DNA of 64,000 nucleotides from NCBI RefSeq assembly GCF_013391085.1, contig NZ_CP058334.1, positions 248,001 through 312,000 on the forward strand, in the 5' to 3' direction. Of the stretch, positions 15,484-59,049 are shown piece by piece. The translations under genes and the position numbers were made by a program. A model generated the notes under the pieces. The model made no database searches. It was given only the letters and a program-made list of their open reading frames with translations, and was not told where the DNA came from. Within the stretch, counting starts at the first letter, position 1; each line of letters opens with the position of its first letter. Source of the DNA: Natronomonas halophila (GTDB lineage: Archaea > Halobacteriota > Halobacteria > Halobacteriales > Haloarculaceae).

Positions 15484-15626
15484 TAGGGAAACACCCGGCG
15501 CGGACGCTCTTGAATCCCCCGACCAATCGCGACTTCGCCCATGAGTACCGTGCTGAAGGCTCACGTTGGGCAGTAACGGGGCCATTAGCCCGAAAGCTTA
15601 ATCGGCTGGCTCCCGCATTAGGGTCC

Positions 15627-16253
15627 ATGAGCGAGCGGCTTCGGACCGGAATCGGTGTCCTCGACAGGAAGCTTAACGGAGGGATTCCGGCCGGAAGCAT
15701 CGTCGCGCTCACCGCTCAGCCCGCGAGCCAGGCGGAACTGTTCCTGTACGAACTGACCGCGACTCGCGGCACGCTCTACATCTCGCTGGACCGGACCGGC
15801 GATTCCGTCTCGAACAGCATTACCAACTCCAATACCGAGACGGGCGACCCGACGGTCCGCGACGTGACCGGTGACGCGCCGCTCGATAACGCCGCCAAAC
15901 TCGTGTCCGCGCTACCCGAGAACTCCAATCTCATCATCGACCCCGCGGACGTGCTCGAACGGCAGGAAGCGACCCGCTATCGGAACTTCCTGAACGAACT
16001 CCAGAACCACATCTACAACACCGAGAGCCTCGCAATCCTCCACTGTCTCGATGGCCACGATATCCCGCCGCTTCGGGACACCACCGAACACATGGCGGAC
16101 CTCGTCTTCCAACTGAAGACCTCCATCAAGGGCGACCGCATCGAGAACCATCTCGCAGTCCCCAAGTTCCGCGGCGGGCAGGCACTGTCCGACATTATCA
16201 AACTCGAACTGGCCGACGAGGTCGACATCGACACGAGTCGGGATATCGCCTAG
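15627..16253 (+). CDS. RecA/KaiC-superfamily ATPase-like protein
   Basis: A 208-residue protein, MSERLRTGIGVLDRKLNGGIPAGSIV, with the typical entry of RadA/KaiC-like domains. The Walker A region is degenerate: after PAGSIVALTAQPASQAELFL there is no GKT/S, so ATP binding may be weak or lost. The Walker-B-like strand is NLIIDPADV. Haloarchaea carry several such RAD55-type paralogues of unknown role. The ATG at 15627 lies about 27 nt after an AGCTTAATC box, fitting a leaderless start. A dispersed repeat follows right behind its stop. Confidence 0.8.
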   Translation: MSERLRTGIGVLDRKLNGGIPAGSIVALTAQPASQAELFLYELTATRGTLYISLDRTGDSVSNSITNSNTETGDPTVRDVTGDAPLDNAAKLVSALPENSNLIIDPADVLERQEATRYRNFLNELQNHIYNTESLAILHCLDGHDIPPLRDTTEHMADLVFQLKTSIKGDRIENHLAVPKFRGGQALSDIIKLELADEVDIDTSRDIA

Positions 16254-16623
16254 AACACCCACTTTTTGCACCTCCTTCGCGCGCCTGCGGCGCGCTCAGT
16301 CGGGCAAAAACGTGGGGAAAATATGCGCGCCTCCTTCCAGCCGCGAGCCTTCGCTTCGCTCAGGCTCGCGTTAGTCAGTCGGCGCTACGCTGGCTCCCTT
16401 CGGTCGCCAGCGGGAACCGCCTCGGGAGCGACCATCGGACGCCTCTTCGGCGGATGCTCTCACCCTTCCATTTATAAACAAAGCCGAGACCAGACGGCCC
16501 ATGCTCTGAGCAGTCGCCGATGGCCCGACGAGGCGGGAGCACGGTGAACGGGTCATCGCTGGAACACACCGTCTGTTCGCTACTTCGCCAACGGTCAAGT
16601 ACCCGGCCCGCCCAACTACGGGT
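16254..16623. other. Intergenic stretch without a gene
   Basis: These 370 bp hold the mosaic repeat described separately and, downstream of it, a TTTATAAA box at 16472-16479 and about 140 nt of sequence before glmM. A transcript starting near 16505 would have a long leader into glmM. No protein-like frame or tRNA is seen; the small frames here are Arg/Ser-rich shadows. Confidence 0.6.
16259..16458 (+). repeat. Dispersed 200-bp mosaic repeat, copy 1
   Basis: The unit begins 5 nt after a stop codon with CCACTTTTTGCAC (16259-16271). It then has a 7-bp hairpin (16279-16295), a constant 27-nt block at 16303-16329 beginning GGCAAAAACGTGG, and a 9-bp hairpin CGCGAGCCT/AGGCTCGCG (16342-16370) with loop TCGCTTCGCTC. 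A 20-nt block CGGGAACCGCCTCGGGAGCG (16411-16430) and a last block TCGGCGGATGCT (16447-16458) follow. The same blocks occur in the same order, inverted, at 57216-57419. Confidence 0.85.
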
Positions 16624-56786: not shown

Positions 56787-57002
56787 ATGGACTGGACGAA
56801 ACCGGTGTCGTTCCTGTTTGCCCTGCTCGTCGCCGCCATTGCGGTCGGCGGGGTCGTCGAACTGCTCCGAACAACGCTCGTAGGTGAGTACGTCACCGCC
56901 TCCGTCGCCACCCTCGTGGTCGTCGGCATCATGCTGGTGGCCACCATCTTCGTCGGCGCGAAAAACCGCCAGTGGCTGGCGAATCCCGAGTCCTACTTCT
57001 GA
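56787..57002 (+). CDS. Small two-helix membrane protein (71 aa)
   Basis: A 71-residue protein, MDWTKPVSFLFALLVAAIAV. Two hydrophobic helices (about 6-25 and 38-58) are joined by LLRTTLVGEYVTAS, and the tail is KNRQWLANPESYF. Leaderless start after the shared TATA box. A relative of the dispersed hairpin repeat begins 3 nt after its stop codon. Function unknown. Confidence 0.78.
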   Translation: MDWTKPVSFLFALLVAAIAVGGVVELLRTTLVGEYVTASVATLVVVGIMLVATIFVGAKNRQWLANPESYF

Positions 57003-57005
57003 CGA

Positions 57006-57142
57006 ACTTTTTGCACGGGTCGGCTTCGCCGACCCGGCAAAAACTTCGATGAAAAAGACACGGCGCCCCTCCCGATGGTCGGGGCTTGGTCCCGCGCCTC
57101 GCTACGCTCGGCGCGGTGAACCGCGAGCGCTTCGCGCTCGCG
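57006..57142 (+). repeat. Dispersed mosaic repeat, short relative (copy 3)
   Basis: Starts ACTTTTTGCAC three nt after a stop codon. A 9-bp hairpin CGGGTCGGC/GCCGACCCG (57016-57036) and GGCAAAAAC (57036-57044) follow. Two further hairpins are CCGCGCC/GGCGCGG with loop TCGCTACGCTC (57092-57116) and CCGCGAGCG/CGCTCGCGG (57120-57142). Only the beginning blocks are shared with the long copies. Confidence 0.75.
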
Positions 57143-57215
57143 GACATGTCCACTAGTTCTGTCCCACCAGTCTACACAAGAACTTCTCTACAACAGTTTA
57201 GCAAGAATTCAGGTT

Positions 57216-57419
57216 AGTATCCGCCGAGCGGGGCGTTTGAAAAACGCCCCCGAGGCGGTTCCCGGCGCCGAACGAAGTGAGGCGCCGTAGCGACGAGTGA
57301 CCACCGCACGCCGTCAGGCGTGCGACGGGAACGAGTCGCGCATATTTTCACCACGTTTTTGCCGCGGAGCCGGGTCGCGCCCCGTAGCGGGCGCGACCGG
57401 CGGAGCGTGCAAAAAGTGG
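57216..57419 (-). repeat. Dispersed 200-bp mosaic repeat, copy 2
   Basis: Read on the minus strand from the FKBP stop codon: CCACTTTTTGCAC (57419-57407), a 10-bp hairpin GGTCGCGCCC/GGGCGCGACC (57373-57398), and the 27-nt block at 57337-57363 (one mismatch to copy 1). An 8-bp hairpin (57306-57325) and a hairpin GGCGCC/GGCGCC with loop GAACGAAGTGA (57264-57286) follow, then the 20-nt block (57245-57264, one mismatch) and TCGGCGGATACT (57216-57227). Same order as copy 1, different hairpins. Confidence 0.85.
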
Positions 57420-58415
57420 CTAGAGTTCGTCCGCGATTTCGTCGGCGTCGATGTCGGCTTCTTCGAGGGCTTCCTCGATGTCGACGTCCTCGGGGGCGCC
57501 GCCGGCTCCGCCCATGCCGCCCATCATACCGCCCATGCCCATTCCCATGCCGGAGCCATCGAGGACTTCCTCGATGACGATGCGGTCGATGCTGGTCAGG
57601 TCGATGACCTGCTGTGCAATCTGCTGTTTCTGCATCATCCACTGCTGGTTCATCGCCAGCTGGGGCGTGGATTCGACGTAGAGGGTTTCCTTCTCGACCG
57701 TCTCGGTGATGGTCTCGGGTTCGGCGTCCTCGTCGTCGTCCTCGTCGGGTTCTTCGACGCGAGTTTCCTCGACCTCGTCGGTCTCGACCCACATCTCGAG
57801 GTCGACGTCGAGGAACATACCGAGCAGGCCTTTGGCCTTCTCGAGGTCGTCCTCGACCTGTTCGAGGATTTCGTAGTCGTATTCGATGTCCTCGCCGGCC
57901 AGCGGGTGGTTGAAGTCCACGCGTGCGCGGCCGCCGATGATGGTCTCGAGGACGCCCTGTTCGCCCTCGATCTGGACGCGGGCGCCGGGGTAGCGGTCGT
58001 CCTCGTCGATCTTGTCGGCGGAGACGGTGCGGACCTGCTCTTCGTCGTACTCGCCGAAGGCGTCCTCACCGGAGACGACGACGCTGCCCTCGTCGCCGAC
58101 GTCCTTGCCGCGGATGTCGTCTTCGACCTGGGGGAAGAGGTGGCCCTCGCCCAGCACGATGACGCGGGGTTCGAAGGTACCCTGGTCGGCGACGCCTTCC
58201 TCTTCGGCGACCTCTTCGTCGGTCGTGTCGACGAGTTGGTCGTCCTCGACGGTGCGGGCGGTGTAGGCGAGACGGATGAAGTCGCCGTCCTGCAGGCCCT
58301 CGGCTTCCGCTTCGGCCTCGACGTCCTGCTCCTCGGTCTCGGTTTCGGTCACTTCTTCGGCGGCATCCTCGGCCGCGTCGTCGGTCTCCTCGACCTCATC
58401 GGGTTCATCACTCAT
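57420..58415 (-). CDS. FKBP-type peptidyl-prolyl isomerase (SlyD-like)
   Basis: A 331-residue prolyl isomerase and chaperone. A 40-residue Asp/Glu-rich leader precedes the FKBP core (GDFIRLAYTARTVEDDQLVDTT, then EPRVIVLGEGHLFPQVEDDIRG). The IF insert domain (FGEYDEEQVRTVSADKID) and FNHPLAGEDIEYDYEI follow. After a C-terminal helical domain comes a Met/Gly-rich stretch (GMGMGMGGMMGGMGG) reminiscent of chaperonin tails. It ends ADEIADEL. The ATG at 58415 is preferred over upstream frame sequence. Confidence 0.9.
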   Translation of the reverse strand: MSDEPDEVEETDDAAEDAAEEVTETETEEQDVEAEAEAEGLQDGDFIRLAYTARTVEDDQLVDTTDEEVAEEEGVADQGTFEPRVIVLGEGHLFPQVEDDIRGKDVGDEGSVVVSGEDAFGEYDEEQVRTVSADKIDEDDRYPGARVQIEGEQGVLETIIGGRARVDFNHPLAGEDIEYDYEILEQVEDDLEKAKGLLGMFLDVDLEMWVETDEVEETRVEEPDEDDDEDAEPETITETVEKETLYVESTPQLAMNQQWMMQKQQIAQQVIDLTSIDRIVIEEVLDGSGMGMGMGGMMGGMGGAGGAPEDVDIEEALEEADIDADEIADEL

Positions 58416-58506
58416 ACTGTGAACGTCAGTCGTCGCACCCTTAACAATCACGTTTCCCGTTCGGCGAGCCACGGCGCTTTTACTCGTGCCGAGCGACGGA
58501 GCGGGT

Positions 58507-59049
58507 ATGTATGAAGTCGAACTGAAAGTGCGGGCCGACCACGAGCCCGTCCGCGAGCGGTTGGCGGAACTCGATGCCGAACCACAGGGCATCGTCGAGC
58601 AGGTCGACACCTACTACGACCACCCGGTCCGGGATTTCGCCGAAACCGACGAGGCCCTGCGCATCCGCCGAGAGACCTACGAGGACGAGTCGACCGCTCG
58701 GGTAACGTATAAAGGTCCGCTGGTCGAGGAAGCCTCGAAGACCCGCGAGGAGTGGGAGACGGGCGTCGACGACGGCGAGACGATGGCGAGCATCCTCGAC
58801 GAACTCGGCTTTGCGCCGGCCGCGACCGTCGAGAAGATTCGTGAGCGGTTCAGTTGTGACGGCTACACGGTAACGCTGGACAACGTTGCCGGCCTCGGCG
58901 AGTACGTCGAAGTCGAAACGGAAGCCGAAGAGGAATCCATCGACTCCGCACGCGAGGGCGCGATTCGACTACTTCAGGACCTCGGCCTCGACGCCGACGA
59001 ACAGGTCCGGACCTCCTATCTCGGCCTGCTGCTCGACGAGAGCGCGTAG
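58507..59049 (+). CDS. cyaB: CYTH-domain class IV adenylate cyclase-like protein
   Basis: A 180-residue CYTH tunnel-fold protein. The signature EVELKVR is at the start (MYEVELKVRADH), followed by QVDTYYDHPVRDFAETDEALRIRRE and the acidic NVAGLGEYVEVETEAEE strand pair that binds metals. Relatives are class IV cyclases or thiamine triphosphatase; in archaea the activity is unproven. The start at 58507 is the family start. It is about 75 nt ahead of the SAM synthetase gene. Confidence 0.88.
   Translation: MYEVELKVRADHEPVRERLAELDAEPQGIVEQVDTYYDHPVRDFAETDEALRIRRETYEDESTARVTYKGPLVEEASKTREEWETGVDDGETMASILDELGFAPAATVEKIRERFSCDGYTVTLDNVAGLGEYVEVETEAEEESIDSAREGAIRLLQDLGLDADEQVRTSYLGLLLDESA

Follow-up and report, generated by a model that had tools for sequence, protein, structure and literature searches.

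Bacterial REP/BIME sequences are imperfect intergenic palindromes dispersed in many copies near gene ends, and the attC sites of integrons combine short constant boxes with arms that are conserved in structure and variable in sequence, positioned behind stop codons. The element described here is also a dispersed palindrome found near gene ends, and its GCTAC, read GTAGC on the other strand, recalls the REP tetranucleotide; it differs from REP/BIME by its size of about 200 bp, its four helices and fixed linkers, the lack of GCTAC in one of its subtypes (type II) and the absence of a link between its copy number and Y1 transposases. By analogy with attC sites it has short constant boxes, variable arms and a seat behind stop codons, but its copies are dispersed and single and no cassette arrays were noticed. 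The closest published systems are the PATEs, the SMR-A elements and the "SwitchRepeats" of Haloquadratum walsbyi (PMC3119063). They are, like the present element, short, non-coding, palindromic, heterogeneous between copies and free of target duplications; small repeats lie inside the palindromes of others, and strains can carry two different repeats, or an inverted one, at a given site (PMC3119063). PATEs are linked to the ends of IS605-type transposons, which was not found for the element, and a search of the main text gave no mention of a fixed position behind stops, of a shared multi-hairpin plan with constant linkers or of single hairpins being exchanged in place (PMC3119063). In Haloferax volcanii a stretch of T is found at intergenic transcript ends, and insertion of a T5C tract terminated 95% of transcripts (PMC7237163). 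No earlier description of the family was found in the open-licence literature, in which the Haloquadratum work is the nearest.

The window analysed is a stretch of 64,000 nucleotides (248001-312000) of the 3.21 Mb chromosome C1 of Natronomonas halophila (genome G000). Two sequences in it had been noted to share four blocks in the same order; the blocks were all found as described, in copy 1 at 16259-16458 (+) and copy 2 at 57216-57419 (-), and both copies fold strongly (z -2.5 and -7.6, respectively). The general plan, about 200 letters long, is a stop codon, CCACTTTTTGC-hairpin-GCAAAAACGTGG, GAAAATATGCG, a composite helix, a hairpin, and GAACCGC-hairpin-GCGGATGCT. In type I elements the P1 stem is made of CCAC-TTTTTGC-AC, one or more variable hairpins and GGCAAAAAC-GTGG, and is followed by GAAAATATGCG, the P2/P3 composite helix with the end CGCTAC, the P4 hairpin and GAACCGC-P5-GCGGATGCT. 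P2 features recurrent UC/CU mismatches at variable spacing, as seen by eye in an alignment of 33 copies. A pairing of columns 1-3 with 21-23 given by RNAalifold was rejected since these columns are near-invariant and their GC pairs in P1.

Copy 1 follows the gene of a DUF7125 / KaiC-like ATPase (15510-16253, +; Pfam; start codon uncertain) that ends with TAG at 16251-16253. Its P1 stem (16259-16315, +), formed by CCAC-TTTTTGC, a variable hairpin and GCAAAAAC-GTGG, presents T5 on both strands. It is followed by the constant A-rich linker GGAAAATATGC (16316-16326, +), which is TTTTCC when read in the opposite direction on the complementary strand. Next come a P2/P3 composite helix that contains UC/CU mismatches (16327-16385, +), the P4 hairpin (16389-16411, +) and GGGAACCGC, the P5 hairpin and GCGGATGCT (16412-16458, +). 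Copy 2 is a complete type I element that scores 167 bits with the covariance model R1 (see below) and is composed of P1 (57351-57419), linker (57340-57350), P2/P3 (57290-57339), P4 (57264-57286) and P5 with its flanks (57216-57263). It lies behind the gene of an FKBP-type peptidyl-prolyl isomerase (57420-58610, -; stop TAG 57420-57422; start codon uncertain), whose product matches the Pfam family FKBP26_IF above the cut-off and FKBP_C slightly under it.

A third, shorter relative had been placed at 57006. It does stand behind a stop codon, but its start is at 57003, with no gap to the TGA at 57000-57002. Nor is it a truncated copy: it belongs to a distinct subtype, type II (57003-57149, +; 37.7 bits with model R1). 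Its parts are P1 (57003-57048), the linker ATGAAAAAGAC (57049-57059), P2/P3 (57060-57091), P4 (57092-57116) and P5 with flanks (57117-57149). The plan of type II is CGAAC-TTTTTGC .. GCAAAAAC-TTCG, ATGAAAAAGACAC, P2/P3, P4 and GAACCGC-P5-GCGGA, and in a form IIb GAAC is paired with GTTC; the outer P1 pairs covary between subtypes and T5 and A5 are constant. The TGA that abuts the type II element terminates a gene for a small membrane-protein-like product of 71 aa (56787-57002, +), convergent to the FKBP gene, which is kept as convergent neighbour in relatives and had no family in the Pfam search. Where two genes converge, each often has its own element; the two elements then point in opposite directions, frequently with type I facing type II, as at 57003-57419 of the window and in the C1 pairs 939501+/939758- and 1807835+/1808075-.

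A search of the complete genome and of relatives, put forward as a check of the original prediction, returned many further copies. BLAST with copy 1 as query gave 46 matches in the N. halophila chromosome. Model R1, a covariance model of 147 positions derived from the 33-copy alignment, identified at least 91 places at E<=0.01 in the genome among the best 150 candidates scored; its E-values are rough, and all copy counts per genome are minima based on the best candidates. In six species of the genus 41, 34, 34, 32, 27 and 26 matches were counted (E<=0.001; minima) and only 0-1 in genomes G002, G003, G004, G007, G017 and G019 at the same threshold. The element is also present on a Natronomonas gomsonensis scaffold. 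In a sample spread across Halobacteriales, matches at E<=1e-6 were found in 40 of the 194 genomes, which belong to 17 of the 64 genera sampled (minima).

The copies stand directly behind stop codons and are oriented with the gene. The original prediction had them begin 0-5 nt after a stop, which is the case for copy 1 (5 nt after TAG 16251-16253) and copy 2 (0 nt after TAG 57420-57422), and had proposed to test whether further matches lie immediately 3' of genes. Using gene calls of a simple codon-usage caller on 448 kb of DNA, the first T of the P1 tract was at most 8 nt from a called stop of the same strand in at least 46 of 78 copies, as against the 1.8% expected from intergenic base/strand positions (p about 1e-59, binomial); several further copies follow, by eye, stops of genes missed by the caller. 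Neither of the outcomes named as refuting the original prediction, a lack of further copies or hits placed without regard to stops, is therefore borne out. Hairpins such as CTCGCTTCGCTCG are abundant in the intergenic DNA of haloarchaea, so that chance likeness or compositional hairpins of a GC-rich genome had to be considered, an explanation of negligible probability that is refuted by model R1 E-values reaching 1e-41, linkers invariant across 33 copies and this position effect.

Genes that bear an element rarely end in TGA (5 of 52 versus 140 of 363, p 1.7e-5). The same holds when 17 bearing genes are compared with their orthologs from four relatives, where TGA was found in 0 of 11 element-bearing and 29 of 49 empty genes (p 3e-4). 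As the stop codon tends to differ when an element is present, the 5' junction of the element may be read as lying inside the stop codon. The stops of bearing genes are TAA or TAG (for example 16251-16253 and 57420-57422 of the window) and seldom TGA, and those of their element-free orthologs are mostly TGA. Some copies display double 5' ends, in which a CCACTTT or CCACGTT remnant is closely followed by the CGAACTTTTTGC or CCACTTTTTGC of a second start, suggestive of a younger element that landed behind an older T-tract (C1 2194539+, 1565854+, 2516149+ and 1009972-; locus L152 of G018).

Occupation of gene ends varies between species. The FKBP gene has 17 orthologs with a readable 3' end within the genus, and none is followed by an element; in the four that are syntenic, the convergent gene is the same but only a short gap away, in place of about 417 bp. 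For 17 other bearing genes, several orthologs hold an element of a different kind at the same place. An acyl-CoA dehydrogenase-like gene (G000 162064; named from its sequence) has type II in N. halophila; its orthologs in G018 and G016 carry type I and the one in G015 carries a third form. Types I and II alternate at gene ends 348336, 1695756 and 1285045. Different subtypes therefore occupy the same gene ends in different species.

The original prediction considered the repeat to be unlike an insertion sequence, and it is indeed no ordinary one. Its suggestion of a structured mobile repeat holds as to the empty sites and fails as to target duplication and an associated transposase, neither of which was found, and as to the large amount of change inside stationary copies. 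A non-autonomous element of PATE, REP or MITE kind, mobilized by a transposase or recombinase that acts in trans on single-stranded hairpins and targets gene ends, with any gene-end function being incidental, is a possible but unlikely explanation. It would account for the dispersal of copies and their patchy distribution among species, for empty syntenic sites and for nested starts behind remnants of older ones in some copies, and the palindromic repeats of Haloquadratum also lack target duplications as far as described (PMC3119063). On the other hand, no terminal inverted repeats were seen (CCAC at one end of the element is not repeated in inverted form by GATGCT at the other), no signal of target duplication was detected at the copies, and much of the variation arises within copies that stay in place. 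Nor does copy number track Y1 transposases: G010 (88% complete) has 34 copies and no Y1, G017 no copies and three Y1 (Y1_Tnp matches are mostly about 130 aa long). The element signature is absent from IS605 loci, and the TnpA/TnpB loci of N. halophila and of relatives gave no model R1 match at E<=1. Among specific candidates, a MITE was rejected for want of both terminal inverted repeats and target duplication, and an IS605/IS200 or RAYT origin since Y1_Tnp counts do not follow those of the element. The element shares with PATEs its non-coding nature and the absence of terminal inverted repeats and target duplication, and a PATE or IS605-derived identity was discarded because no relation to IS605-type transposons was found. 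Phage and plasmid collections yielded no match at blastn sensitivity.

Within the element, linkers are constant and hairpins vary, the latter being modules that are shuffled among copies and replaced or inverted in place. No association was found between copies among P1 tip, P2/P3, P4 and P5, and identical P4 or P5 hairpins adjoin dissimilar neighbours. The P3 sub-hairpin is reverse-complemented inside its P2 arms in two copies (2123561+ and 1224153-). Changes in place were compared in displayed alignments of loci from the close relatives G001, G009 and G015, whose flanks are 91-97% identical. In L210/L228/L220 the P1 tip, P2/P3 and P4 differ and P5, the linkers and both flanks are common; several modules differ in L216/L227; L217 and L218 share one pair of elements where L225 holds a different pair; L222 and L230 differ by inversion of the P4 apex and of the P1 loop and by 62 nt, with two hairpins, inserted in P5; and L219/L221 have identical elements. 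Template switching between inverted repeats is known to homogenise arms and invert spacers (PMC8604942). Two-hairpin inserts (such as TCATCAGATTCC..GGAATCTGATGGGCAATCAGACCGC..), which resemble small repeats nested in palindromes, are also found in element loops, namely P1 loops at C1 2502784-, 2467167+, 559731- and 948531+ and the P5 loop of L230, as well as in L154.

The stems are paired in 95% of cells, with 165 two-sided changes. Conserved structure with varying sequence normally counts as evidence that proves an RNA to be functional. In the present family modules are shuffled, apices inverted and wobble pairs not favoured, which points to the dynamics of DNA palindromes instead; covariation-based RNA discovery needs such a control. 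Of 949 stem cells, 5 are G-T and 8 A-C, whereas 406 stem pairs of tRNAs from the loci analysed have 28 G-U and 0 A-C, an imperfect control given that ARAGORN itself prefers G-U over A-C. Minimum-energy folds contain 3.3% and 2.9% G-U on the two strands, as compared with 9.4% in random windows. Compensatory changes are thus present and the wobble preference of a functional structured RNA is absent. Since G-U is no commoner than A-C, stem pairing looks kept at the DNA level and not by selection on RNA. In Rfam 15, five loci with copies had nothing at E<=1 except one tRNA and a microRNA match that, at 25.6 bits for a cut-off of 105, is below threshold and taken as chance.

These data bear on the 3'-end RNA module of the original prediction, which survives as a structured multi-copy repeat tied to gene 3' ends; its maintenance by RNA-level selection is not supported, wobble pairs being as rare as A-C and whole hairpins being replaced or inverted in place. 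A structured 3' UTR RNA, transcribed with the gene, acting as RNA in stability, protein binding or regulation and selected for its fold, is unlikely. Strand-specific placement behind stops in the orientation of the gene, conserved unpaired linkers, strong covariation and the occupation of thermosome gene ends in several genera would fit with it. It is opposed by a G-U level not above that of A-C mismatches, unlike in tRNA, by wobble being just as rare on folding the opposite strand and by wholesale hairpin replacement and apex inversion; moreover, as inferred from PMC7237163, T5 at the element start should end most transcripts before the remainder is made.

Almost all copies have T5 at the start of P1, a short distance past the stop as in archaeal T-tract terminators, and the A-rich linkers GGAAAATATG and GATGAAAAAGAC are TTTTCC or TTTTTC on the other strand, beside a second T5. 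The tract of the element is T5GC and the one assayed in Haloferax volcanii T5C; T-tracts on the other strand too are a feature shared with those terminators (PMC7237163), but in the element the tracts make up both arms of one hairpin, itself part of a large repeat. T5 after the stop, the opposite-strand tracts and the Haloferax volcanii data make a bidirectional transcription terminator, or insulator, the likeliest function, and the element probably works as such. A scan for bacterial-type terminators gave nothing at the element itself, as expected from a T-tract that precedes the hairpin.

The favoured reading, to which a probability of roughly 0.5 is given, is a bidirectional 3'-end terminator module that is spread and remodelled by recombination and palindrome template switching. 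T5 of the P1 5' arm would end the transcript of the gene about 15 nt or less past the stop, and a convergent or antisense polymerase would meet two T-tracts (TTTTCC or TTTTTC, then TTTTTGC) and be stopped before the gene. The palindromes would be recombinogenic: template switching between arms during replication could yield perfect arms and flipped apices, and repair of breaks or stalls at hairpins from other copies could swap single hairpins and occasionally establish a copy behind another gene. The retention of P2-P5 and the linkers is not accounted for by termination alone, nor are the exact seat behind the stop and the shift from TGA by terminator selection alone. The element is filed as a variant of dispersed palindromic repeats that probably acts as a terminator in both directions and whose new feature is the exchange of hairpins in place. 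That it represents a new class of prokaryotic element, with a fixed set of short linkers that receive hairpins from a genomic pool and an active exchange system that would recognise structure as for attC, swap single palindromes in place and plant new copies exactly at stops, is a tentative idea of rather low probability. The family is an example of the rapid rebuilding of gene ends in haloarchaea. It also provides natural material for testing termination in both directions and a means of reading out palindrome-driven recombination in archaea.

The only copy of each of the genomes G019 and G002 (L238 and L239, ~1501-1720) is found upstream of a start codon and directed away from that gene; the flank is near-identical between the two loci and P2/P3 is different. 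In N. halophila a type II element lies behind one thermosome paralog, and related elements follow a different thermosome paralog in genus g23 and a thermosome gene in g27. In g11 and other genera, elements of the same plan that have different constant motifs, such as ACTAAATTTTGC..GCAAAATTTAGT-ATAAAA and CCACCTTTTACGC..GGTAAAAGCTGGACCAAAA, lie directly behind thermosome stops (L266-L268, L251, L274, L262, L270 and L273). This suggests a superfamily beyond the reach of model R1, and the plan itself may extend beyond this sequence family.
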